DNA of 22,935 nt from a virus. The stretch covers positions 1 to 22,935 of the IMG/VR virus record IMGVR_UViG_3300046665_000493; one strand, written 5' to 3'. Made by a program: the position numbers and the translations under genes. This document shows positions 2,910-20,227 of the stretch, piece after piece. The notes under the pieces were generated by a model. The model was not told the origin of the DNA. It ran no database searches and was given only the letters and a program-made list of their open reading frames with translations. Position 1 is the first letter of the stretch, and every line of letters begins with the position of its first letter.

Positions 2910-3794
2910 TTACTTCGGCTGAACGAGCTTCGCGATGTCGGGCTTGGCGTTGGCGAAGCCGTCAACGATCTTCTCGAAGTCGTTGCTGTGAGCCGCGATC
3001 CAGTCGCGGTTGGCAACGAACACGGCGTCGACCTGGATGGTGTCGACCGACTTCGAACCACCGAACATGCCGGTCGGCTGGATACCCTTGTAGGTGTTGG
3101 CCGGGATCTCGCCGTAGGTGTAGACGGGCTGACCGCGGCTATCCTTGGCGTTCTTCGTCATGTCGCGGTCGTCGGTGGCGACCAGGGCAACGCTGTCGGC
3201 GTACTTCGGCGCTTCGTTCTTGAGGAACGATGCATTCAAAGCCGTGACGATCAGGGCGCACTGCACTTCCGAACCGTCGTTGACGGCGCTCAGGGCGAGG
3301 GTGCCAGCCAGGTCGGACGTGCGAACCTTGCCGTAGCGCGCCTTGTCGGCTGCAACGAAAGCGGCCCACGTCGTGTTGGCGCCCGAACCTTCGGGACCGA
3401 TGGCGACCGTGAAGTTGGAGTTCAGGTCGACCATGCGGGCGGAGGTGTAGGCCTTGCGGTTGCAGATCAGGTTCGCCTGCTCCTGGTAGAGCACGCCGGC
3501 ACGCTGGAGCGCCGAGATCGCCTTGGCGTTGCGGCTGGAGTAAACGAGCAGCGCGTCGGACTGGACGAACGCGCCGTCGCACTCGCCAGCCGTGACCTTG
3601 TCGAGGTTGTCCAGCGAACCCTTGGTCTCGACGACCTCGACCGCCGGAGCGTGACGCTTCAGGTGCTGACCAGCAGCGTAGTAGTTGAGCTTCTGATTAC
3701 CGGTGCAGAGACGGAACTTGTCCGCAGCCTGCGCCGAGGTGGCCGCCGAGAGGCCGATGGTTGCTGCGGCGATCAACAGAAAGAGCTTCTTCAT
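2910..3794 (-). CDS. Secreted TAXI/TRAP-type periplasmic solute-binding protein
   Basis: A 294-aa protein with a clear Sec signal peptide: MKKLF, a hydrophobic core LLIAAATIGLSAA, and a cleavage site near TSAQA/ADKF (residues 1-23). The mature part has FRLCTGN, VEVVETKGSLDNLDKV, GECDGAFVQSDALLVYS, VAIGPEGSGANTTW and SEVQCALIVTALN. This matches the order seen in TAXI-family binding proteins: a glycine turn after strand 1, then 'G(S)xxNL..l..GexD.afvQsD'. Such proteins deliver small organic acids or amino acids to TRAP permeases, but no permease is encoded here. ATG 3794 is chosen because it gives the signal peptide and has AAGGAG upstream; an in-frame TTG at 3833 lies inside the operator-like motif. 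It ends at a strong terminator and looks like a lysogen-conversion (moron) gene. Substrate unknown; the family call is moderately sure. Confidence 0.82.
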   Translation of the reverse strand: MKKLFLLIAAATIGLSAATSAQAADKFRLCTGNQKLNYYAAGQHLKRHAPAVEVVETKGSLDNLDKVTAGECDGAFVQSDALLVYSSRNAKAISALQRAGVLYQEQANLICNRKAYTSARMVDLNSNFTVAIGPEGSGANTTWAAFVAADKARYGKVRTSDLAGTLALSAVNDGSEVQCALIVTALNASFLKNEAPKYADSVALVATDDRDMTKNAKDSRGQPVYTYGEIPANTYKGIQPTGMFGGSKSVDTIQVDAVFVANRDWIAAHSNDFEKIVDGFANAKPDIAKLVQPK

Positions 3795-3806
3795 GTAGTT
3801 CTCCTT

Positions 3807-3822
3807 GCCTGCATTTGCAGGC
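3807..3822 (-). promoter_or_regulatory. Inverted repeat in the TAXI gene leader
   Basis: GCCTGCA-TT-TGCAGGC is a perfect 7-bp inverted repeat sitting between the TTGCATTCAAACAAAC motif (3824-3840) and the ribosome-binding site of the TAXI gene. The same heptamer pair, with the arms in reversed order, occurs in the terB leader (6639-6657). It may be an RNA hairpin or a second operator. Confidence 0.5.
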
Positions 3823-3823
3823 G

Positions 3824-3840
3824 TTGCATTCAAACAAACG
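3824..3840 (-). promoter_or_regulatory. TTTGC-N6-GCAAA-type element upstream of the TAXI gene
   Basis: The plus strand reads TTGCATTCAAACAAACG, a near-palindromic copy (half-sites TTGC and ACAAA around the ATTCAA spacer). It lies 29 nt upstream of the ATG in the 54-nt gap after the 37-aa gene. It is nearly identical to the copies at 11778 and 17135. Confidence 0.65.
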
Positions 3841-4425: not shown

Positions 4426-4838
4426 CAGTACTTCTTTCCGCCCGCCTTTGCGCGGTTCTCCAGCTTGTGGTCCGGCCGGGTCGCGTTGACCAAAGCCTTC
4501 GCCACGGCCGGCGCGCCCAGGTCGTATCCCATGGCGCCTGCCAAGTCGCCGACGCGGAACAGAACGTCGACCAGCTCAACGGCAATGCCGGGAAACTGGG
4601 GCAGCTTGTCGTCCATGGCGTCCGTGCGATGCGCTTCGAGTGCCTCGGAAGCTTCGCGCATGACGAGGGCCAACTTGACCGGAACCATCAGAGGGTTCTT
4701 GCGCAGATCTTCTCCGGTCACTGGGTCGATCCACCAATGGGCGGCCATCTTGTGGGTGATGCGGACGAGGGAGTTGATGGATCTCTGCAGCTCCTCGACG
4801 TCCGCTTGGTTGAAGTTGTCGTTCGCTACTACGGTCAT
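4425..4838 (-). CDS. MazG-like nucleoside triphosphate pyrophosphohydrolase
   Basis: A 137-aa all-alpha protein. Hallmarks are REASEALEAHR (Glu62 and Glu65, the ExxE metal site), DDKLPQFPGIAVELVDVLFR (Glu88 and Asp91, the ExxD site), VGDLAGAMGYDLGAP, and a tail with RPDHKLENRAKAGGKKY. This pattern is typical of phage and bacterial MazG-fold enzymes that hydrolyse (d)NTPs to (d)NMP and PPi. The likely roles are cleaning up unusual nucleotides or steering the dUTP/dUMP supply for ThyA; a (p)ppGpp-related role is also proposed for some MazG proteins. It overlaps the upstream gene by ATGA. The N-terminus has the ANDN motif common in proteins of rhizobial phages. Confidence 0.85.
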   Translation of the reverse strand: MTVVANDNFNQADVEELQRSINSLVRITHKMAAHWWIDPVTGEDLRKNPLMVPVKLALVMREASEALEAHRTDAMDDKLPQFPGIAVELVDVLFRVGDLAGAMGYDLGAPAVAKALVNATRPDHKLENRAKAGGKKY

Positions 4839-5164
4839 GATGCCTCCTTAAATCGGAACTCGTCAGCCAGGTCCTGGAACATCCGGACCACCTCTTGCTG
4901 ATTACGTCCAGTCTGGTCGTTCCAATCGAATGGATGCTTGCCCAGCTGGGTTTTTATCAATGGGACGAAGCGCGCATACGCGCCTCGGTCGTCTTCGCCA
5001 GCTGCTCGGCGGATCGCGCCCTCAATGTCGAAGGTGCGAGCCTCACGGCTGAATACGGGGACCGGCTTACCAAGCCCATCCCGTGCGCAGGTCTTCTGCG
5101 TCCACCGTCCGCGCTTTGAAAACAGCAACAGGCACCGTTCCACAATTTCGAGTTCGGAGAACAT
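4835..5164 (-). CDS. DUF6197-like hypothetical phage protein
   Basis: A 109-aa protein beginning MFSELEIVERCLLLFSKRGR, followed by WTQKTCARDGLG and FDIEGAIRRAAG. A first helix, then 'W.Q...ARD..G' and 'A....GA...A', is the layout I recall for DUF6197, a family of small actinobacterial and phage proteins of unknown function. The start at 5162-5164 lies within the 3' end of the upstream gene. The nearest GGAG is 13 nt away, farther than ideal. It ends in an ATGA overlap with the MazG-like gene. Assignment to the DUF is from memory of the pattern. Confidence 0.68.
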   Translation of the reverse strand: MFSELEIVERCLLLFSKRGRWTQKTCARDGLGKPVPVFSREARTFDIEGAIRRAAGEDDRGAYARFVPLIKTQLGKHPFDWNDQTGRNQQEVVRMFQDLADEFRFKEAS

Positions 5165-5363
5165 TGCGCTTGCTGAACTCCCATTCGAATGATGCGATAC
5201 GGCTGATGTCGCGGCGGCCGAGCCTCATGAGGTCGAACGCCAGGGTGTGGAGGGGGACTCTCGACGGGAGGGAGACGAAATCAGGCGGGGTGTAGACCGC
5301 CTGATCCGTTTCCTTGTCGATGATCCAGAGGCGCTTGTGCCTCTTGGCTACGAAGAGGTGCAT
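5067..5363 (-). CDS. Hypothetical protein (98 aa) with a long overlap into the next gene
   Basis: Starts at ATG 5361-5363 (MHLFVAKRHKRLWIIDKETD) with AGG 6 nt upstream. It continues YTPPDFVSLPSRVPLHTLAF and ISRIASFEWEFS. Codons up to about 5165 lie outside any other gene and look coding. The last 98 nt overlap the DUF6197-like gene in another frame, so the C-terminal 30 residues may be under dual constraint. No known family, signal or membrane segment. Basic, probably cytoplasmic. Confidence 0.62.
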   Translation of the reverse strand: MHLFVAKRHKRLWIIDKETDQAVYTPPDFVSLPSRVPLHTLAFDLMRLGRRDISRIASFEWEFSKRNVLRTRNCGTVPVAVFKARTVDAEDLRTGWAW

Positions 5364-5428
5364 CAGTGACCTGCAATGCAGCGGGCGACCCCGTAGGCGC
5401 AGATGCACCAAACGAACAGGATCGCCAA
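5363..5428 (-). CDS. Possible 21-aa hydrophobic peptide
   Basis: The 84-nt gap between the terC stop and the next ATG contains an open frame ending at 5363-5365, in a TGATG junction with the downstream start. From a TTG at 5426-5428 it encodes LAILFVWCICAYGVARCIAGH, a hydrophobic span rich in Cys. There is no ATG in frame and the AGGTGG is too close to the TTG, so translation is uncertain. The TGATG junction and membrane-like composition are the only support. Confidence 0.28.
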   Translation of the reverse strand: MAILFVWCICAYGVARCIAGH

Positions 5429-5447
5429 CCACCTCAGCTGGTCTGCA

Positions 5448-6119
5448 TCAGGCAGCCTCAGCAACGACCTCTTCCTTCTTGAAGAAGCGGACGCCGAAGC
5501 CGATGAGCAGGACCAGAGCCGTTCCCGAAGCGGCGGCCAGGTAGTGGCTCGCGTAGGGCGCTGCCCACGGGTCAGCAGCGATGATGCCGCCAGCAACCCA
5601 GCCCAGCAGAGCCGCGCCGGCCCAGGTCAAGATCGGGAATCGGCCGATGACCGCCGAGATGATGGCACTGCCGGCGATCACGAGCGGGATCGACAGGAGC
5701 ACGCCGAGTGCCATCAACAGGGTTGACCCATTCGACAGGGCGGCGATGGCCATGACGTTGTCGAGGCTCATGCTGGCGTCCGCGACCGCGATGGTCCAGA
5801 TCGCTGCGCCCAGGGTGATCACCTTCTTGGCGGGACCGGCTTCGTCGTCGCCACCCATGACCAGCTTGGCCGCGACCCAGAGCAGGAAGAGTCCGCCGAT
5901 GATGCTCAGGGCAGGCACGCCCAGGAGGAAGGAGGCGAAGAACGACATGACGACGCGCAGGCCGATGGCCGCCGCGGTGCCGCCGACGATGCCCCACTTC
6001 TGCTGGTTCTCCGGGAGCTGCCGGCTGACGAGGGCGATGACGACCGCATTGTCGCCGGAGAGCAGAAGGTCGATCCACACGATGCCAAGCAGCGCGACCC
6101 AGAAGATATGGTCAAACAT
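5448..6119 (-). CDS. terC: TerC/YjbE-family integral membrane protein
   Basis: A 223-aa multipass membrane protein. It has the two family signatures: WIDLLLSGDNAVVIALV near the N-terminus and ADASMSLDNVMAIAALS in the second half. These are the 'GDN' and 'S(L)DN' acidic motifs inside membrane helices 1 and 4-5. About seven hydrophobic segments are seen. Members of this family are linked to tellurite resistance and to metal-ion (notably Mn) homeostasis. Start at ATG 6117-6119 with TTGGAG 6 nt upstream; a longer in-frame start at 6131 lacks a ribosome site. The tail FFKKEEVVAEAA is cytoplasmic-like. It follows terB, and such a pair is unusual in a phage region. Probable lysogen cargo. Confidence 0.9.
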   Translation of the reverse strand: MFDHIFWVALLGIVWIDLLLSGDNAVVIALVSRQLPENQQKWGIVGGTAAAIGLRVVMSFFASFLLGVPALSIIGGLFLLWVAAKLVMGGDDEAGPAKKVITLGAAIWTIAVADASMSLDNVMAIAALSNGSTLLMALGVLLSIPLVIAGSAIISAVIGRFPILTWAGAALLGWVAGGIIAADPWAAPYASHYLAAASGTALVLLIGFGVRFFKKEEVVAEAA

Positions 6120-6146
6120 TGTAGACTCCAAAAAATGAAAGAGGGT

Positions 6147-6168
6147 CGGGCGGCCCGAAGACCGCCCG
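6147..6168 (-). terminator. Hairpin between terB and terC, possible attenuating terminator
   Basis: A perfect 7-bp CGGGCGG/CCGCCCG stem has an 8-nt loop, 15 nt past the terB stop. On the minus strand it is followed by ACCCTCTTTCATTTTTT, so a T-run exists but 12 nt late. It may reduce terC relative to terB expression. Confidence 0.5.
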
Positions 6169-6182
6169 TAGTTCTCGTTCGC

Positions 6183-6620
6183 TTAGGCGGCGAGCAGCTT
6201 GTCGGCGTCGACGTTGATCAGCTTGCCGATCTCGGTGAGCACGACCTTCTCCTCGGGGCCGATGCCGCCCTGGTCTGCGGTGTCAGCCGCGATCAGGAAC
6301 ACGTCCTGGCGCACGCCGATGTCGCGGGTCTGGAGCGCCTCGATTGCACGCTTGTTCTCCATGCGGCCGGCACGGGACTTGGCGCGGGTGAGGGCGGCGT
6401 TCAGAGCCTCCTCGATCTGCGAGCCGCTGTAGGAGGCGGACACGATCGGGTTGGCCTGCATGCCGGAGATGGCAGCATCGACCTCGGAGTCGTCGATCGA
6501 GCCGTCAGCCGCGGTCACGTTGGCAGCCGCCGCAGCAACACCAGCGAGGAACACCTTGTCGCCCGTGTAGCTGACGAGGGACTTGTTGGCCTGGTCGAGG
6601 AATTTCTTGAAGAAGCTCAT
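6183..6620 (-). CDS. terB: TerB-like protein
   Basis: A 145-aa helical protein starting MSFFKKFLDQANKSLVSY. It has the TerB signatures FLAGVAAAAANVTAADGSID (acidic loop with AADG.ID), SEVDAAISGM and a second acidic loop TADQGGIGPEEKVVLTEIG. In TerB these conserved acids bind divalent metal, and the protein works with TerC-like membrane proteins at the cytoplasmic face. ATG 6620 is chosen because GAAAGGAAA precedes it; the longer ORF start at 6671 falls in the regulatory motif. It is co-directional with and just upstream of terC. Tellurite resistance, stress or phage-defence roles known for Ter systems are possible but unproven here. Confidence 0.88.
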   Translation of the reverse strand: MSFFKKFLDQANKSLVSYTGDKVFLAGVAAAAANVTAADGSIDDSEVDAAISGMQANPIVSASYSGSQIEEALNAALTRAKSRAGRMENKRAIEALQTRDIGVRQDVFLIAADTADQGGIGPEEKVVLTEIGKLINVDADKLLAA

Positions 6621-6638
6621 GTTGGTTTCCTTTCGATT

Positions 6639-6657
6639 TGCAGGCTTCCGGCCTGCA
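6639..6657 (-). promoter_or_regulatory. Inverted repeat in the terB leader
   Basis: TGCAGGC-TTCCG-GCCTGCA is a perfect 7-bp stem with a 5-nt loop, lying between the TTTGCATTC motif (6661) and the terB ribosome site. It uses the same heptamer as the TAXI leader repeat, with the arms swapped. Confidence 0.5.
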
Positions 6658-6660
6658 CGG

Positions 6661-6676
6661 TTTGCATTCACGCACG
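6661..6676 (-). promoter_or_regulatory. TTTGC-N6-GCAAA-type element upstream of terB
   Basis: The plus strand reads TTTGCATTCACGCACG. The left half-site is perfect and the right half-site is partial (GCACG). It sits in the 117-nt gap between the ParB-like gene and terB, 40 nt from the terB ATG. The rest of the gap shows only a short CCGGA/TCCGG inverted repeat. Confidence 0.5.
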
Positions 6677-6737
6677 TCGTGGTGCATGGGTCGTCGACCG
6701 GACCCGTAGATCCGGTTAATCGGGACTTCTCAGCGCA

Positions 6738-7703: not shown

Positions 7704-10700
7704 TCAGCTGCAGCCCGTGGTCTCGCCGCACGACTCGCACTTCAGGCAGGTGCCGTTCCGCACCATCTGAAAGCTTGAGCAGTTGCCGCAGCTGTCGCCC
7801 GTGTAACCGGACATCTTCGCGACCGCGCGCTTATCAGGCAACACCGTCGTTTTGACCTGCGAGACGATCTTCTCCAGGACAGCGTCCGACGCATCAGCCA
7901 CGTTGACCGTGATCTGATTGCTGACGTTGACCACCGGCATGGCCATCCCGACCGAGGTATTCTCGCTCTCGTCGGGGGTGACGTGAGCCAGATCATCGCG
8001 GCCGGCGTAGTTGATGCCGAGGTCTCGCCAGACGAAGTCGATGATCGACGACGCGCTCTTGACCCGCTCGTGCGACTGGACAAAGCCAGCCGGCTCGAAC
8101 TTGAAGAACGTGAAGGCGTCCACATACTCCTCGACCGGAACTCCGTACTGGAGGCCGATGCTGATGGCGATCGCGTAGGCGTTCATCATGGATCGGAAGG
8201 CGGCGCCCTCCTTATGCATGTCGATGAAGATCTCACCGAGCCGACCATCCGGGTACTGCCCGGTGCGGAGGTAGACCTTGTGACCTGCCACGATGGACTT
8301 CTGCGTGTAGCCAACGCGCTTGTCCGGCATCCGCTCGCGCTTCCGCACGATCTTCTCGACCACCTTGACGACGTCCTGCTTGACCTCAACGATCGAGGGC
8401 TCGTCAACTTCGTCCTCATCGACCAGAGCAGAGCTGAGCGGCTGGGACAGCTTCGAACCATCGCGATAGATCGCGTTGGCCTTCAGTCCCAGCTTCCACG
8501 ACATCATGTAGGCCTTGCTGATGTCCTCCACCGTAGCATCGTTCGGCATGTTGATCGTCTTGGAGATTGCACCCGAGATGAACGGCTGAACCGCAGCCAT
8601 CATCTTGATGTGACCCTTCCAGTGGATCGATCGCGTGCCGCTCTTGCCGCACGGGGTCGCGCAGTCGAAGACCGAATAGTCGGCGACGTCCAGACCCGGA
8701 GCGCCCTCCAACGTCATCGTTCCGCAGGCGTAGATGTTGGCCTGTTCGATCTCCGGCTCGGAGAAGCCCAACTTGTCCCATTCCGCGAGGAAGCGGATGT
8801 CGAAGGTGGACCGAACATCCTGCTCGGTGATCGTCAGGCCAGCAGCTTTCGCAGCCAGCTCGAACTTCGCCGGCAAGCTGCCGTGCCCCGTGGCGTACGT
8901 CGAGATAGCGTCGATGTCCGCCGCGGTGTAGCCAAGCACATTCAGGGCCGCCGTGACCGACTGGTTGATGATCTTGAAGTAGCCACCGCCGGCCAGCTTC
9001 TTGAACTTCACCAGTGCATAGTCCGGCTCGATGCCCGTCGTGTCGCAGTCCATCACCAGGCCGATCGTCCCGGTCGGGGCGATCACCGTCGTCTGGGCGT
9101 TGCGGAAGCCGTGATCCCCGCCAAGGCGGAGGACTTCGTCCCAGATGTCGCTGGCCGTCTGCGCCAGGCCGTCCTGATACTCGTGCTCCCAATCGAGACC
9201 TTCCGGCCGGATGGAGAGACCGGCATAGGGAACCGATCCGCTCTTTTCCGCCGCGGCGTGGTGGTTGTGCATCACCCGCATCATGGATGCGGCGTTCTCC
9301 TCGTATTTGGGGAACGCACCCAGAGCTTCAGCCATCTCAGCCGACGTGCGATAGGCCACGCCGGTCATGATCGCAGAGATTGCCCCGGCGAGAGCACGAG
9401 CCTCGTCGGAGTCGTACGCGATGCCAGCCTGCATCAGCATGCCGCCCAGGTTGGCAAAGCCGAGACCCGTGGTGCGGTACTGATAGGAGAGCAGCGCGAT
9501 CTCCTTCGACGGGAACTGAGCCATGGTGATCGAGATGTCGAGCACGATTTCGATCAGACGGCAGGCATGGATGAAGCTGCTGTCGTCGAACACGAGCGGA
9601 CCGTTGCCGTGCCGCGTCGTGAACTTCATCAGGTTGGCCGAGGCCAGGTTGCACGCCGTGTCGTCCAGGAACATGTACTCCGAGCACGGGTTGGACGCGC
9701 GGATGCGACCGCCGGCCGGGCAGGTGTGCCAGTCGTTCATGGTCGTGTTGAAGTGCAGACCCGGGTCAGCAGACTCCCAGGCAGCACGACAGATCTGGTC
9801 CCAGAGGGCTCGGGCCTTGACGGTCTTCATGACCTTGCCGTCTTTGCGAGACTTCAACTCCCAATCCATGCCGAGCTGAACGGCCTGCAGGAAGTCGTCC
9901 GTCACCGACACCGTGTTGTTCGAGTTCTGACCCGACACGGTCTCGTAGGCTGCCGACTGCCAATCGACATCGAACTCGGGGAAGTCGAACCCTTCGCCTT
10001 CTTCAGCGAGCTGCAAGACACGCTTGATGTACGTGTCCGGCAGGAAGGCAGCGCGAGCCTGACGGATCGCTTCCTTCGTCTTGGGATCCTTATCGCCGCG
10101 GGCGACGCACTGGTTGTAGACCTCCTTCAGATACTTCTTGGCAGCCTTCGAACCGGCCACCAGAGCCGCAACCTTCTTCTCCTCCTCGACCTTCCAGCCG
10201 ATGAACTCCGGGACGTCCGGATGATCGACATCGACCACGACCATCTTGGCCGCGCGCCGCGTCGTCCCGCCCGACTTGATCGCGCCGGCTGCCCGGTCAC
10301 CGATCTTGAGGAACGACATCATTCCCGACGACGTGCCGCCGCCCGACAGCTTCTCACCCTTGCCACGCAGGCTCGAGAAATTGGTGCCGGTGCCGGAGCC
10401 GTACTTGAACAGCCGAGCCTCGCGGACCCACAGGTCCATGATGCCGCCTTCCTTGATCAGGTTGTCGCCGATCGACTGGATGAAGCAGGCGTGAGGCTGC
10501 GGGCGCTCATAGGCGGAGGTCGAAGCCAGAACCTGCGGCATCATGGTGATGTCGCGGTCGTCAACGTAGAAGTGACCCTGGGCCGGTCCGTCGATGCCGT
10601 ACGCCCAATGCAGACCGGTGTTGAACCACTGCGGAGAGTTGGGAGCGAACATCTGGGTGGCGAGCATGAAGCGCAGCTCGTCGAAGAAGGCGAGAGCGTT

Positions 10701-11135
10701 CGACTCCGCATCCTCATTGAGGTCGGCGATGGTGATGTACTGGCTCATGGAACCGGGCTTGAAGTAGCCGTGCTTCCAGCCCCAATAGGTCCAGCAGCCC
10801 GCGAGACGGTCGAACACCTGCTTCGCCGAGGTCTCGGAGGTCAGATAGTCCTTGGCGTAGTCGGTCGGGTAGGGCATTGCGACGCTGCGCTGAAGCCACT
10901 CCGGAACGCCGTCCTCGGCGACCTTCGTCAGCTCACGCGGCACGCCGGCTTTGCGGAAATACTTCTGCGCCAGGACGTCGACCGCAACCTGCGACCATCC
11001 TTCGGGCACCTCGATGCCCTCCAGACGGAAGACGACAGAGCCATCCGTGTTCTTGATCTCGCTGACGGCATTGCGCCAGCCGATCATGGCGTAGGGTGAG
11101 ACGCCGGCCTTCGTGTATCGTCGCTCAATTCTCAT
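7704..11135 (-). CDS. nrdJ: Adenosylcobalamin-dependent (class II) ribonucleoside-diphosphate reductase
   Basis: An 1143-aa single-chain reductase that makes dNTP precursors and uses coenzyme B12 to generate the thiyl radical. Visible landmarks are [14 protein letters not shown] (about 161-174), HACFIQS with Cys217, the active-site loop [20 protein letters not shown] (Asn482, Cys484, Glu486), [10 protein letters not shown], and [20 protein letters not shown] (about 686-705). The C-terminus carries the CGNC...CLKCESC zinc ribbon plus terminal Cys expected for re-reduction by thioredoxin. This is the large proteobacterial/phage NrdJ type (usual length about 1000-1250). I see no intein or frameshift. 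No B subunit gene is needed or seen. It follows a 94-aa gene by only 3 nt. An oxygen-independent reductase lets the phage replicate in microaerobic hosts, but it makes it depend on host cobalamin. Confidence 0.96.
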
Positions 11136-17152: not shown

Positions 17153-17827
17153 TTAGACGTACTCGCGCCAGATGGCCTTATCGCCGAGCGTCTCGACGAA
17201 AGCCCTATGGGCGGTGATTTCCTCGTTGGTCAGGCGCTTCGACAGCGGCGTGGGCCGCTGCAGAGTCTTTGGCGTTGCGAACTGCTCCTCTTCCTTGAGG
17301 AGGTCCATCTGCATTCCGAATTGTCGGCCGCCGCACATCTCCACGTAGACCTGAGCCAGAAGCTCGGAGTCGAGGAGAGCGCCGTGCGTCGTTCTTCTCG
17401 ATGCGTCGATGCCGTAGACCGAGCAGAGCGCATCAAGGGTGTGCCGGCGGCGAGGATGGATCTTCTTCGCCAGCTCCAGAGTGTCGACCACCTCGTTCTC
17501 AAGCGGGGCAATGTCGAGCCTGTCCAGCTCTTCATTGATCATCCCCATGTCGAAGGACGCATTGTGGATCACCAGCCTGGCGCCCTCGATAAAGCTCAAG
17601 AACCGGTTGTGGATCCGCTTGAAGGTCGGCTTCGTGCGAAGAAAGACGTCGCTGAGGCCGTGGACCTTGTAGGCCTCCTTGTGAACGGCGACGGTCGGGT
17701 TGCAGTATTGGTGGTAGACCCGGTCGGTCGGCACCATGTCGACCATCTCGACACAGCCGATCTCGCAGATTCGATCGGTCTTCCGGTCGAGCCCCGTGGT
17801 CTCTGTGTCGAGAATGATTTCCCTCAT
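17153..17827 (-). CDS. dnaQ: DnaQ-like 3'-5' exonuclease (DNA polymerase III epsilon-like)
   Basis: A 224-aa DEDDh exonuclease. The Exo I motif is IILDTETTGLD (Asp7, Glu9), Exo II is LVIHNASFDMGMINEEL (Asp93), and Exo III is RTTHGALLDSELLAQVY (His148, Asp153). Length and layout match the proofreading epsilon subunit, without the C-terminal clamp or tau-binding tail being obvious. Here it may proofread for the phage or host polymerase, or act alone as a trimming enzyme. The start at 17825-17827 is in an ATGA overlap. No polymerase is seen in the window. Confidence 0.92.
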   Translation of the reverse strand: MREIILDTETTGLDRKTDRICEIGCVEMVDMVPTDRVYHQYCNPTVAVHKEAYKVHGLSDVFLRTKPTFKRIHNRFLSFIEGARLVIHNASFDMGMINEELDRLDIAPLENEVVDTLELAKKIHPRRRHTLDALCSVYGIDASRRTTHGALLDSELLAQVYVEMCGGRQFGMQMDLLKEEEQFATPKTLQRPTPLSKRLTNEEITAHRAFVETLGDKAIWREYV

Positions 17828-18075
17828 CGTCGTATCGGCTTCCTTGTGACCGGGTCGATCCCGTCTTCGAGCATCTGAACGTCGAGCTGTTCGATCGTTC
17901 GATCGAGAATGGCCTCGGAAGCGGCGTGGTAAGCCGACCTCGCCATTTCGATCTCGTGAGGCGAGGAGGCGGCCAAGACCGTGGACTTGAACCGCTCCAG
18001 CGTTGAGAACTGCACATGGAAGGCCGCGTGCAGGTTCAGGTGAGCTTGCGCCCCTTCATGGCTACGCTGCGCCAC
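17824..18075 (-). CDS. Hypothetical helical protein (about 83 aa, start uncertain)
   Basis: The frame ends in an ATGA overlap with the DnaQ-like start. Its reliable part runs from LHAAFHVQFSTLERFKSTVL through SSPHEIEMARSAYHAASEAI to LDRTIEQLDVQMLEDGIDPV. No in-frame ATG lies downstream of the upstream stop. I choose GTG 18075 (MAQRSHEGAQ...), which overlaps the cupin-like gene by 14 nt. A GTG farther in (VQFSTL) or a TTG at 18117 are alternatives. It has a helical hairpin and an acidic tail ending PVTRKPIRR. Function unknown. Confidence 0.58.
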   Translation of the reverse strand: MAQRSHEGAQAHLNLHAAFHVQFSTLERFKSTVLAASSPHEIEMARSAYHAASEAILDRTIEQLDVQMLEDGIDPVTRKPIRR

Positions 18076-18697
18076 GAGCCGCGGTCTTTTCGAGCTCGAT
18101 GCCGGTCCGCACTTCAAAGCGGCGCAGCATCGCGATGACTTCGTCCGCGTTGAACTTCGAGTAGAGACCGTCCAGCGACGCCGGCTGATCCTTGAAGAAG
18201 GTCGAGGTCGGCTTCTCGATCGGATAGATGTCCTCGAACTGGACCAGCATCAGCACCGTGTCGTTGCCGGCGATGCGGATGGTGTGCAGGTCATCGGCCT
18301 GCATGTAGTAGGACTCGCCGTTGATGAACCGGCTGCGGTGAGCCTCGTACAGCATCTCCTCACCAGCGAAGGTGAAGCCGTTGCCGCCGTTCATCGGGGT
18401 GCGGTATTCGAACCAGTTGAAGATCTTGCCCAGTTCGTCGTTCATGGTCCGGCGGAACCAGACGTTCTCGACCGCGCCGGCCGCGACGTAGGTCTCGAAG
18501 TCGTAGCGATGATCGTGCGGCGCGATGACCTCGGGCATGGAGTTCACGTCGCCGTCGAAGAAGTACAGCTTGACCGTCTCCGTCTCCGAACGCTGGAGGC
18601 AGAGATAGTGGAAGCCCTTGGTGTGGAGGTCCTTGAAGGAATGCTCGACGATATGGTCGATATCCAGTCTCTGGGGGATCGGCAGATCACGCAGCAT
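18062..18697 (-). CDS. Cupin-like protein, putative metal-dependent enzyme
   Basis: A 211-aa protein. A cupin motif 1 is visible at residues 61-74, PHDHRYDFETYVAAG: His61-x-His63-x4-Glu68-x5-Gly. A motif-2-like histidine follows at His138 in YYMQADDLHTIRIAGNDTVL. These residues suggest an RmlC-like barrel holding Fe or another metal, as in small dioxygenases or isomerases. The flanks are EVIAPHD..., VENVWFRR and FNWFEYR. The gene overlaps the RlmN-like gene by 11 nt, so the two are co-translated and may act on one substrate. Fold inference is fair; catalytic function is not established. Confidence 0.62.
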   Translation of the reverse strand: MLRDLPIPQRLDIDHIVEHSFKDLHTKGFHYLCLQRSETETVKLYFFDGDVNSMPEVIAPHDHRYDFETYVAAGAVENVWFRRTMNDELGKIFNWFEYRTPMNGGNGFTFAGEEMLYEAHRSRFINGESYYMQADDLHTIRIAGNDTVLMLVQFEDIYPIEKPTSTFFKDQPASLDGLYSKFNADEVIAMLRRFEVRTGIELEKTAARGAA

Positions 18698-19640
18698 CGA
18701 TAGCTCCTGGGGTGTGAACGAGGGGAAGGCCGCGGCCGATGCTCGGCTTGGCCAATTCGGGGTGTTCCTTCATCCAGTTCTGGACGAACCAGAGCTGGCC
18801 GCAGCCGCCGCCGATGGTGTCCTGGCCGGCGGGATCGAACACACGGACGTCGAAGCCGCGCTCGACCAGCTTGATGCTGAAGTCGCTCGCCAGCCCGCGC
18901 TGGTGGTCGTTGGTGGCCGGCAGGCCTTCGGAGCGCTCGCAGACCACGCTGACGGTGGCGTTCCAGATTTGCGGATCGAACAGCGCCAACAGCCGATCAG
19001 CGTCCTCTGCCGAGGAGTTGCCGTCGTGGGCGCAGTAGTTGAAGAACGGGTGGCGGCCGGTGACCTCGTTCCAGATCTTGCCTTCGCGGGCGATCTGAGC
19101 GAGCGTCAGCTTTGCCTTGAACGGAACCAGGGCGTCACGGGCAGCGTCCGTCGACTCGTGGACGGAGAACTGCAGGCCGATCGTCGGGATCTCCATCGAG
19201 ATTTCCCGCACCATCTCGTAGTTGATGCTGGGCGCCGAGGTCGAGATCAGCAACGCGGCGTTGGGATAGCTCTTGTAGAGCTGGCGGAGCGCCGGGATCA
19301 GGCCCTTCAGGTTCAGGAGCGGCTCACCCATGGACATGAACATGATCTGGAGACGCTTCATCTCCGAAGCGCGGATGCCGGTCTGCTCGATGGAGTGGCC
19401 GACCTGGTCGACGATCTCCTCGGTGGATAGCGATCTGACGAAGTTGTCGCCGGCACCGCAGAAGCGGCAGCCGACCGGGCAGCCCGATTGCGTCGAGCAG
19501 CAGATCACGGTGCGCGTGGCATAGTCGGGGTACTTGTAGAGCACCGACTCCGCGACTGCGGTGGCGCTGCTGAACACGAACTTCGCAACGTTCTGAGCAG
19601 CATCGTCGATGCGCCTCACGTTGGTCCAGGTCTGTCTCAT
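18687..19640 (-). CDS. RlmN-like radical SAM methyltransferase
   Basis: A 317-aa protein with the radical SAM cluster motif SGCPVGCRFCGAG (Cys54, Cys58, Cys61; CxxxCxxC). RTVICCSTQSGC places Cys47 where RlmN/Cfr have the first cysteine of the catalytic pair, and AGQDTIGGGCGQLW places Cys280 at the methyl-carrier cysteine. FMSMGEPLLN supplies the SAM-binding GEP motif, as in RlmN. Hence it has the complete residue set for C2-adenosine methylation in RNA. It is about 60-70 residues shorter than cellular RlmN because the N-terminal accessory domain is largely missing. The substrate could be 23S rRNA, tRNA or something phage-specific. It overlaps the upstream gene by ATGA and the cupin-like gene by 11 nt. 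Confidence 0.88.
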   Translation of the reverse strand: MRQTWTNVRRIDDAAQNVAKFVFSSATAVAESVLYKYPDYATRTVICCSTQSGCPVGCRFCGAGDNFVRSLSTEEIVDQVGHSIEQTGIRASEMKRLQIMFMSMGEPLLNLKGLIPALRQLYKSYPNAALLISTSAPSINYEMVREISMEIPTIGLQFSVHESTDAARDALVPFKAKLTLAQIAREGKIWNEVTGRHPFFNYCAHDGNSSAEDADRLLALFDPQIWNATVSVVCERSEGLPATNDHQRGLASDFSIKLVERGFDVRVFDPAGQDTIGGGCGQLWFVQNWMKEHPELAKPSIGRGLPLVHTPGAIDAA

Positions 19641-20227
19641 GCGTAAAATTCCTTGAAAGCGATACCGTCCGCCGGAACGATGCCGGGGGTTTTCTTCAGG
19701 CCGGTCAGGATGAAACCGATCGTCCTGGTGCGAATGTCGTAGGAGACCTGCCGATCCCGCGTGCGGGGGCTGGTCGGCCGGTAGATCTTGTGGACCAGCT
19801 CGGAGTCGCCGCCGCGAGCGAGGGCGATTGCCGCCTTGCTCAGGCGCTCCGGGATGCGGGCAGAGTTGAGGAAGCGCATCCAGGCGAGGACGCCGAGAGC
19901 GCGATCAACGTCGTTCCGCTGCGGCGAGGTCTTTGCCTTGCCGTCGAATGGCTTCATGGCGCAGAGCAGCCTGATCTTCTCGATCTCGACCATCTCGGCA
20001 CGCGACATGCCGACCATGTTCCAGCCGCCAGATCTCTGACCGGACGTAAGCCATCGCCGCTCAGTGTCCGGCGTCTTGTCGATGACCTCGACGGCCTCGA
20101 CGAGAAGTTGCCAGATCACGTCGGAATGACGCGCTTGATCACCCTTCAGCGCCACAGCCAGCTCGCCACCATGGGCGAGCCAGCCGAGCGTGTTCGTGCG
20201 ATCCTCAAGCAGGGACGAAGTTGTCAT
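19637..20227 (-). CDS. Hypothetical protein, possible DUF6362-like
   Basis: A 196-aa protein. Central stretch TERRWLTSGQRSGGWNMVGM is followed by RAEMVEIEKIRLLCAMKPFD, then NDVDRALGVLAWMRFLNSAR and a basic C-terminal region with RDRQVSYDIRTRTIGFILTG. 'ERR.L..G.RS.W..v......', then 'D..D..L.WLRwL', then a helix-turn-helix-like end, is how I recall DUF6362, a phage family with a sigma-factor-like tail. If so, it might be a DNA-binding regulator. Here the tail could bind DNA, but I cannot confirm the helix-turn-helix. It overlaps the upstream gene by 23 nt. Confidence 0.6.
   Translation of the reverse strand: MTTSSLLEDRTNTLGWLAHGGELAVALKGDQARHSDVIWQLLVEAVEVIDKTPDTERRWLTSGQRSGGWNMVGMSRAEMVEIEKIRLLCAMKPFDGKAKTSPQRNDVDRALGVLAWMRFLNSARIPERLSKAAIALARGGDSELVHKIYRPTSPRTRDRQVSYDIRTRTIGFILTGLKKTPGIVPADGIAFKEFYA

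Follow-up and report, generated by a model that had tools for sequence, protein, structure and literature searches.

The window analysed here, a 22.9-kb stretch of phage DNA, encodes a radical SAM protein (rSAM) of the RlmN/Cfr type whose best reading, by motif and fold, is that of a class-A radical SAM C-methylase, this activity being predicted. Judged from its sequences, the family to which it belongs is a distinct and mostly phage-borne one of such putative methylases. The best explanation overall, to which we assign a probability of about one half, is that the enzyme is tied to phage NAD+ metabolism and probably modifies an NAD-related metabolite.

The window is a fragment of a Bradyrhizobium-type phage, the best annotated relative being BDU-MI-1 (78% identity over 42% of the window). 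The rSAM gene (18687..19640, minus strand) encodes 317 amino acids, including C47, C54, C58, C61 and C280, without an N-terminal RNA-binding domain. It is followed on the same strand by the gene of a cupin-fold protein (18062..18697; 211 amino acids; PHROG 8313). Both open reading frames of the original prediction, 19640..18687 and 18697..18062 on the minus strand, were thus recovered, as was their 11-nt overlap (18687..18697, minus strand); an AGGAG ribosome-binding site lies just upstream of the cupin ATG, within the end of the rSAM gene. Neighbouring genes of this operon generally overlap, by 4, 23, 4, 11, 56 and 4 nt at six successive junctions, and therefore the one between rSAM and cupin carries no special meaning. 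The pair is flanked upstream by a conserved 196-aa protein (19637..20227, minus strand) and downstream by a 97-aa protein (17824..18117, minus strand), neither with an assigned function. The former marks the upstream border of a variable slot in all sister phages, and the latter its downstream border, ahead of a DnaQ-like, DNA polymerase III epsilon-like exonuclease (RNase_T, PF00929; 17153..17827, minus strand), a backbone gene which served as the basis for synteny. Elsewhere the window encodes a thymidylate synthase (1356-2207), a large class II (B12-dependent) ribonucleotide reductase of 1143 amino acids (7704-11135) and a candidate ORF resembling NMT1/TRAP solute receptors (2910-3833), which is odd for a phage.

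The radical SAM domain (PF04055) of rSAM was recognised above the Pfam cut-off, the CX3CX2C motif being C54-x3-C58-x2-C61. Cys47, 54, 58, 61 and 280 align one-to-one with C105/112/116/119/338 of Cfr and with C118/125/129/132/355 of E. coli RlmN, and these five catalytic cysteines are invariant in all 53 aligned family members. The claim that every cysteine of the RlmN mechanism is kept was thereby confirmed, and the alignment supports RlmN-type (class A) chemistry as the predicted one. Class A radical SAM methylases possess two conserved cysteines and transfer methyl groups to sp2 carbons by the RlmN/Cfr mechanism (PMC9692996); the invariant C47 and C280 represent this pair in rSAM. Likewise, E31 and Y37, equivalent to E91 and Y97 of Cfr, are kept in 53 of 53 members. 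The AlphaFold2 model of rSAM showed a pLDDT of 88.6, and its top Foldseek matches were all RlmN or Cfr.

Identity with RlmN or Cfr was nevertheless rejected, the scores lying far below the cut-offs: rSAM reached 99.4 bits with the RlmN model TIGR00048 (curated cut-off 290) and 63.8 and 69.2 bits with the Cfr models (cut-offs 530-550). Additionally, a true RlmN is present in 15 of the 16 bacterial genomes with a family member, the latter scoring 91-124 bits. We are nearly certain that rSAM is distinct from RlmN. With RlmN, which methylates C2 of A2503 in 23S rRNA and of A37 in tRNA, it shares the fold, CX3CX2C, the equivalents of the resolving Cys118 and the methyl-carrier Cys355, and the Glu and Tyr of the beta extension. 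However, it lacks the N-terminal accessory domain, as foreseen from the DNA (the RlmN profile is matched only from position 71 of 355), its RNA- and ribose-contact residues are replaced, and identity in structure alignments is 20-26%. With Cfr, the C8-methylase of 23S rRNA A2503, it has the five cysteines and the equivalents of E91/Y97 in common, but not the HhH2 domain, and W101, S103, S151, S153, N208, T210, H286, R327 and F330 are all changed.

The family comprises approximately 185 IMG/VR loci, many of them in large uncultured phages, and phages that infect Stenotrophomonas, Salmonella, Vibrio and Aeromonas also carry relatives, with ~46-73% identity. Among 84,980 bacterial and archaeal genomes 34 loci were found. 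When the bacterial orders to which two MAG carriers belong were searched for further rSAM operons, one genome among 288 and one among 295 were recovered, in each case the starting genome itself, and the plasmid collection gave no rSAM match at 1e-40. No fusions of rSAM to NAD domains were detected, the sole long ORF being due to an intein. In the phage of locus L198, which carries an NAD island, the rSAM gene at 4801-6726 is interrupted by an intein that includes a LAGLIDADG domain (Pfam Intein_splicing, LAGLIDADG_3). Inteins favour conserved sites of important proteins.

It is the gene neighbourhood that makes a functional link of the family to NAD+ metabolism likely. Neighbours were clustered for 139 non-redundant rSAM loci, antisense ORFs being set aside, and family identities were confirmed with Pfam. 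Among the 133 loci outside Bradyrhizobium phages, the commonest neighbours were NMNAT/Nudix (27; a single-linkage cluster in which NMNAT-Nudix, Nudix-NrtR and free-standing NMNAT proteins are combined) and NAMPT (26). Next came PRPP synthetase (10), Nuc_deoxyri_tr2 (10), the nicotinamidase-type isochorismatase PncA (9), the NAD synthase NadE (8), Macro (7), Band_7 (7), NADAR (6) and RtcB (6), Macro and NADAR being ADP-ribose genes. An NAD enzyme is encoded within 6 kb of rSAM in 37 of these loci, and two or more in 34. NMNAT(-Nudix) and NAMPT, the two commonest neighbours, are the components of phage NAD+ reconstitution pathway 2. The Nuc_deoxyri_tr2 protein, whose role is not assigned, recurs beside rSAM in NAD islands (loci L034, L037, L064, L069, L081, L082, L084, L087, L201 and L229).

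NAMPT/NAPRT was found in 30 of 50 rSAM-bearing records, on the same strand as rSAM in 27 of the 30. The two genes are within 4 kb of each other in 18 of these 30 records, against 2.6 expected from the length of each record (P = 4e-14, uncorrected and ignoring kinship). The closest associations are operons. On the bacterial MAG contig of locus L155 the order is PncA-NAPRT-rSAM-NadE, with tightly packed and partly overlapping frames, and on a phage contig (L182) it is PncA-rSAM-NadE; locus L149 shows PncA-rSAM-NrtR/Nudix. When the presence of NAD neighbours was mapped on a tree of 134 proteins, 23 changes were required, at least 12 of them forced by supported branches, and hence the linkage has been formed or lost many times. 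As a control, NAD genes were seen near the cupin in 0 of 26 non-redundant cupin loci (Fisher P = 7e-4).

In contrast to phages with NAD+-salvage gene sets, the lineage of the window has no detected NAD genes. None turned up in the window itself, in a 45-kb piece of BDU-MI-1 or in ~98%, 83% and 84% of three sister phages, using NAD profiles which were derived from the rSAM neighbours and might overlook divergent enzymes. The surveys consulted on phage NAD/ADP-ribose genes and on jumbo phages (PMC9503650, PMC7824862) mention no radical SAM component, nor was a step of this kind found for the NAD metabolism of phages in the literature searched, in which the coverage of journals is incomplete.

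The neighbourhood might also be explained indirectly, rSAM belonging to a set of counter-defence cargo genes that accumulate in the same phage islands, with a protein, DNA or RNA as its true target. This would fit the presence of Macro, NADAR, RtcB and Band_7 genes near rSAM and the 96 of 133 non-redundant non-Bradyrhizobium loci in which an NAD enzyme was not seen within 6 kb (in some cases on truncated contigs). It would also fit the Bradyrhizobium phages, which hold rSAM in a one-slot cargo position and in which no NAD genes were found; the proximity of NAD and RNA-repair genes may reflect no more than a shared place in counter-defence islands. However, the operons of L155 and L182 place rSAM inside compact NAD biosynthesis units and not in mixed islands, NMNAT and NAMPT are by far the top neighbours whereas other metabolic genes that are common in phages failed to emerge, and the loci of the cupin, itself a cargo gene, show no NAD genes. 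We consider an indirect link unlikely.

A further alternative is an RNA methylase that introduces m2A, m8A or a related C-methyl group into tRNA or rRNA during infection and binds its RNA through another protein or through a part of its own. The closest characterised relatives of rSAM are RNA methylases, and the adenosine-site residues E31 and Y37 are retained. RtcB is found near rSAM in six loci, tRNA or RNA-ligase genes are close by in a few, and tRNA genes adjoin rSAM in Stenotrophomonas phage ANB28. The binding apparatus argues otherwise. In Cfr, the residues touching the RNA U-turn or the target nucleotide are W101, S103, S151, S153, N208, T210, Y252, H286, R327 and F330 (PMC13001441). 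In the rSAM family these ten positions differ, mostly through family-invariant replacements (V45, Q98, M100, G155, Q157, F199 in 49/53, V232, F268, A271); the equivalents of Cfr Y97 and S187 are retained. C234 and E235 are invariant and specific to the family (53 members), and of two extra cysteines conserved only there, C234 is present in 53/53 and C203 in 51/53. The N-terminal HhH2-type RNA-binding domain is missing, and Cfr truncated of its N-terminal part confers no resistance and is non-functional on rRNA (PMC8752094). Because of the absent domain, the changed pocket and the behaviour of truncated Cfr, the substrate of the family is probably a different one. Since, in addition, the hosts already carry RlmN and the NAD gene context is recurrent, an RNA methylase appears rather improbable. 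The suggestion that ribosome or tRNA methylation changes in infection can be upheld as a possibility, but it is weakened by the missing domain, the replaced RNA contacts and the recurrent link to NAD genes.

The original prediction read the rSAM and cupin genes as a functional unit, with rSAM and a putative metal oxygenase acting in a two-step base modification. They are indeed adjacent, on the same strand and overlapping by 11 nt, and both are plausible metalloenzymes; against this, as noted above, gene overlaps are the rule in the operon. Conserved adjacency, one of the checks proposed at the time, was examined on phage records, and the genes proved to be rarely neighbours in relatives, an outcome named in advance as speaking against the pairing. 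Among 80 rSAM loci and 45 cupin loci taken from IMG/VR, the two stand side by side only in the window and in two contigs ~92% identical to it. In whole-record searches rSAM occurred in 3 of 46 cupin-bearing records, namely the pair itself and two with the genes far apart, and the cupin in 2 of 50 rSAM-bearing records. In syntenic Bradyrhizobium phages the slot between the 196-aa and 97-aa genes is empty (BDU-MI-1) or holds rSAM alone (L010-L021), the cupin alone (L089-L100) or both.

The affinities of the window are mixed as well. Its exonuclease gene has 83-85% DNA identity to the cupin-only lineage versus 73% to the rSAM-only lineage, and its YqaJ-like gene 87-91% versus 75%, whereas its rSAM gene is 84% identical to that of the rSAM-only lineage. 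The exonuclease-side backbone being nearer to the cupin-only lineage, and rSAM being near the rSAM-only lineage, this suggests that rSAM was acquired by recombination; the addition of a second cargo gene to the slot in this way would be a simple explanation. A conserved rSAM-cupin module was rejected on the co-occurrence counts and the single-gene slots. It is highly probable that the pair is not conserved, and the cupin looks like independent cargo whose arrangement with rSAM arose by chance. A two-step pathway, already contradicted by the sister phages in which each gene occupies the slot alone, is therefore extremely unlikely.

The cupin was examined in its own right. The AlphaFold2 model of its 211 residues is a confident cupin fold (mean pLDDT 91), and the best PDB matches found by Foldseek are cysteine-dioxygenase-type cupins. 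His61, His63 and His138 are invariant among relatives and, according to the model and the Foldseek matches, constitute an HxH...H metal site in a double-stranded beta-helix. The proposed HxHx4Ex5G site is thus present as a motif and the cupin fold is confirmed by the model, but the motif-1 glutamate at position 68 is not conserved, being E, H, W, D, A, K or another residue among relatives, and a classical 3His-1Glu cupin site was rejected on these grounds. With the cysteine dioxygenase-type cupins (B. subtilis YubC, 3eqe/4qm9) the protein shares the thiol-dioxygenase-like fold, the best structural match in the PDB and three conserved histidines; however, identity is 11-13% and the query TM-score ~0.44. 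No Pfam or NCBIfam model, including the curated cysteine dioxygenase model, was matched above its cut-off. The recurrent partner of the cupin is RlaP (5 of 26 non-redundant loci), with RtcB in 2 of 26; both are RNA-repair genes, which suggests an RNA-repair connection for PHROG 8313. RlaP and RtcB have been described as phage RNA-repair components (PMC7824862). The RlaP nucleotidyltransferases recur near the cupin in L104, L106, L112, L118 and L125, and in L125 the cupin is directly upstream of RtcB.

If rSAM is a C-methylase acting in NAD+ metabolism, the reaction might proceed as in the ping-pong mechanism of RlmN/Cfr. Cys280 would be methylated by SAM and, once methylated, would lose a hydrogen to a 5'-deoxyadenosyl radical. 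The methylene radical so formed would attack an sp2 carbon in a ring of the substrate, and Cys47 would resolve the enzyme-substrate adduct. That the substrate is an NAD-type metabolite we regard as having somewhat less than even odds. The target ring may be the pyridine of NAD+ or of a precursor, or else the adenine, at C2 or C8, which is a candidate because Glu31 and Tyr37 are conserved. As NAD+ has a role in anti-phage immunity, a benefit to the phage can be envisaged: a methylated NAD+ pool, or the ADP-ribose signals derived from it, would serve NAD-consuming immunity less well, or the NAD+ made by the phage would be tuned in some other way. In the phage of the window, with no NAD genes of its own seen, rSAM would act on host NAD+. 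We put forward only tentatively that phages and a few bacteria produce NAD+, or a precursor of it, methylated on a ring carbon, and that the resulting pool or its ADP-ribose products are poor substrates for NAD-consuming immune enzymes.

The failed rSAM-cupin pairing shows that a single cargo slot can create misleading gene pairs. The rSAM family itself is, as far as its sequences indicate, a new variant among the class-A radical SAM methylases, with a link to NAD+ salvage that is strong but unexplained. If the ring-methylated NAD+ tentatively proposed above is indeed made, a class-A radical SAM methylase would act on a small nucleotide instead of RNA, and a radical SAM enzyme would take part in NAD+ metabolism. 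Phages are known to counter NAD-depleting immunity by salvaging NAD+, and the recurrence of a conserved RlmN-like family in operons with NAMPT, NMNAT, PncA and NadE suggests that the NAD arms race includes a chemical step not recognised before.
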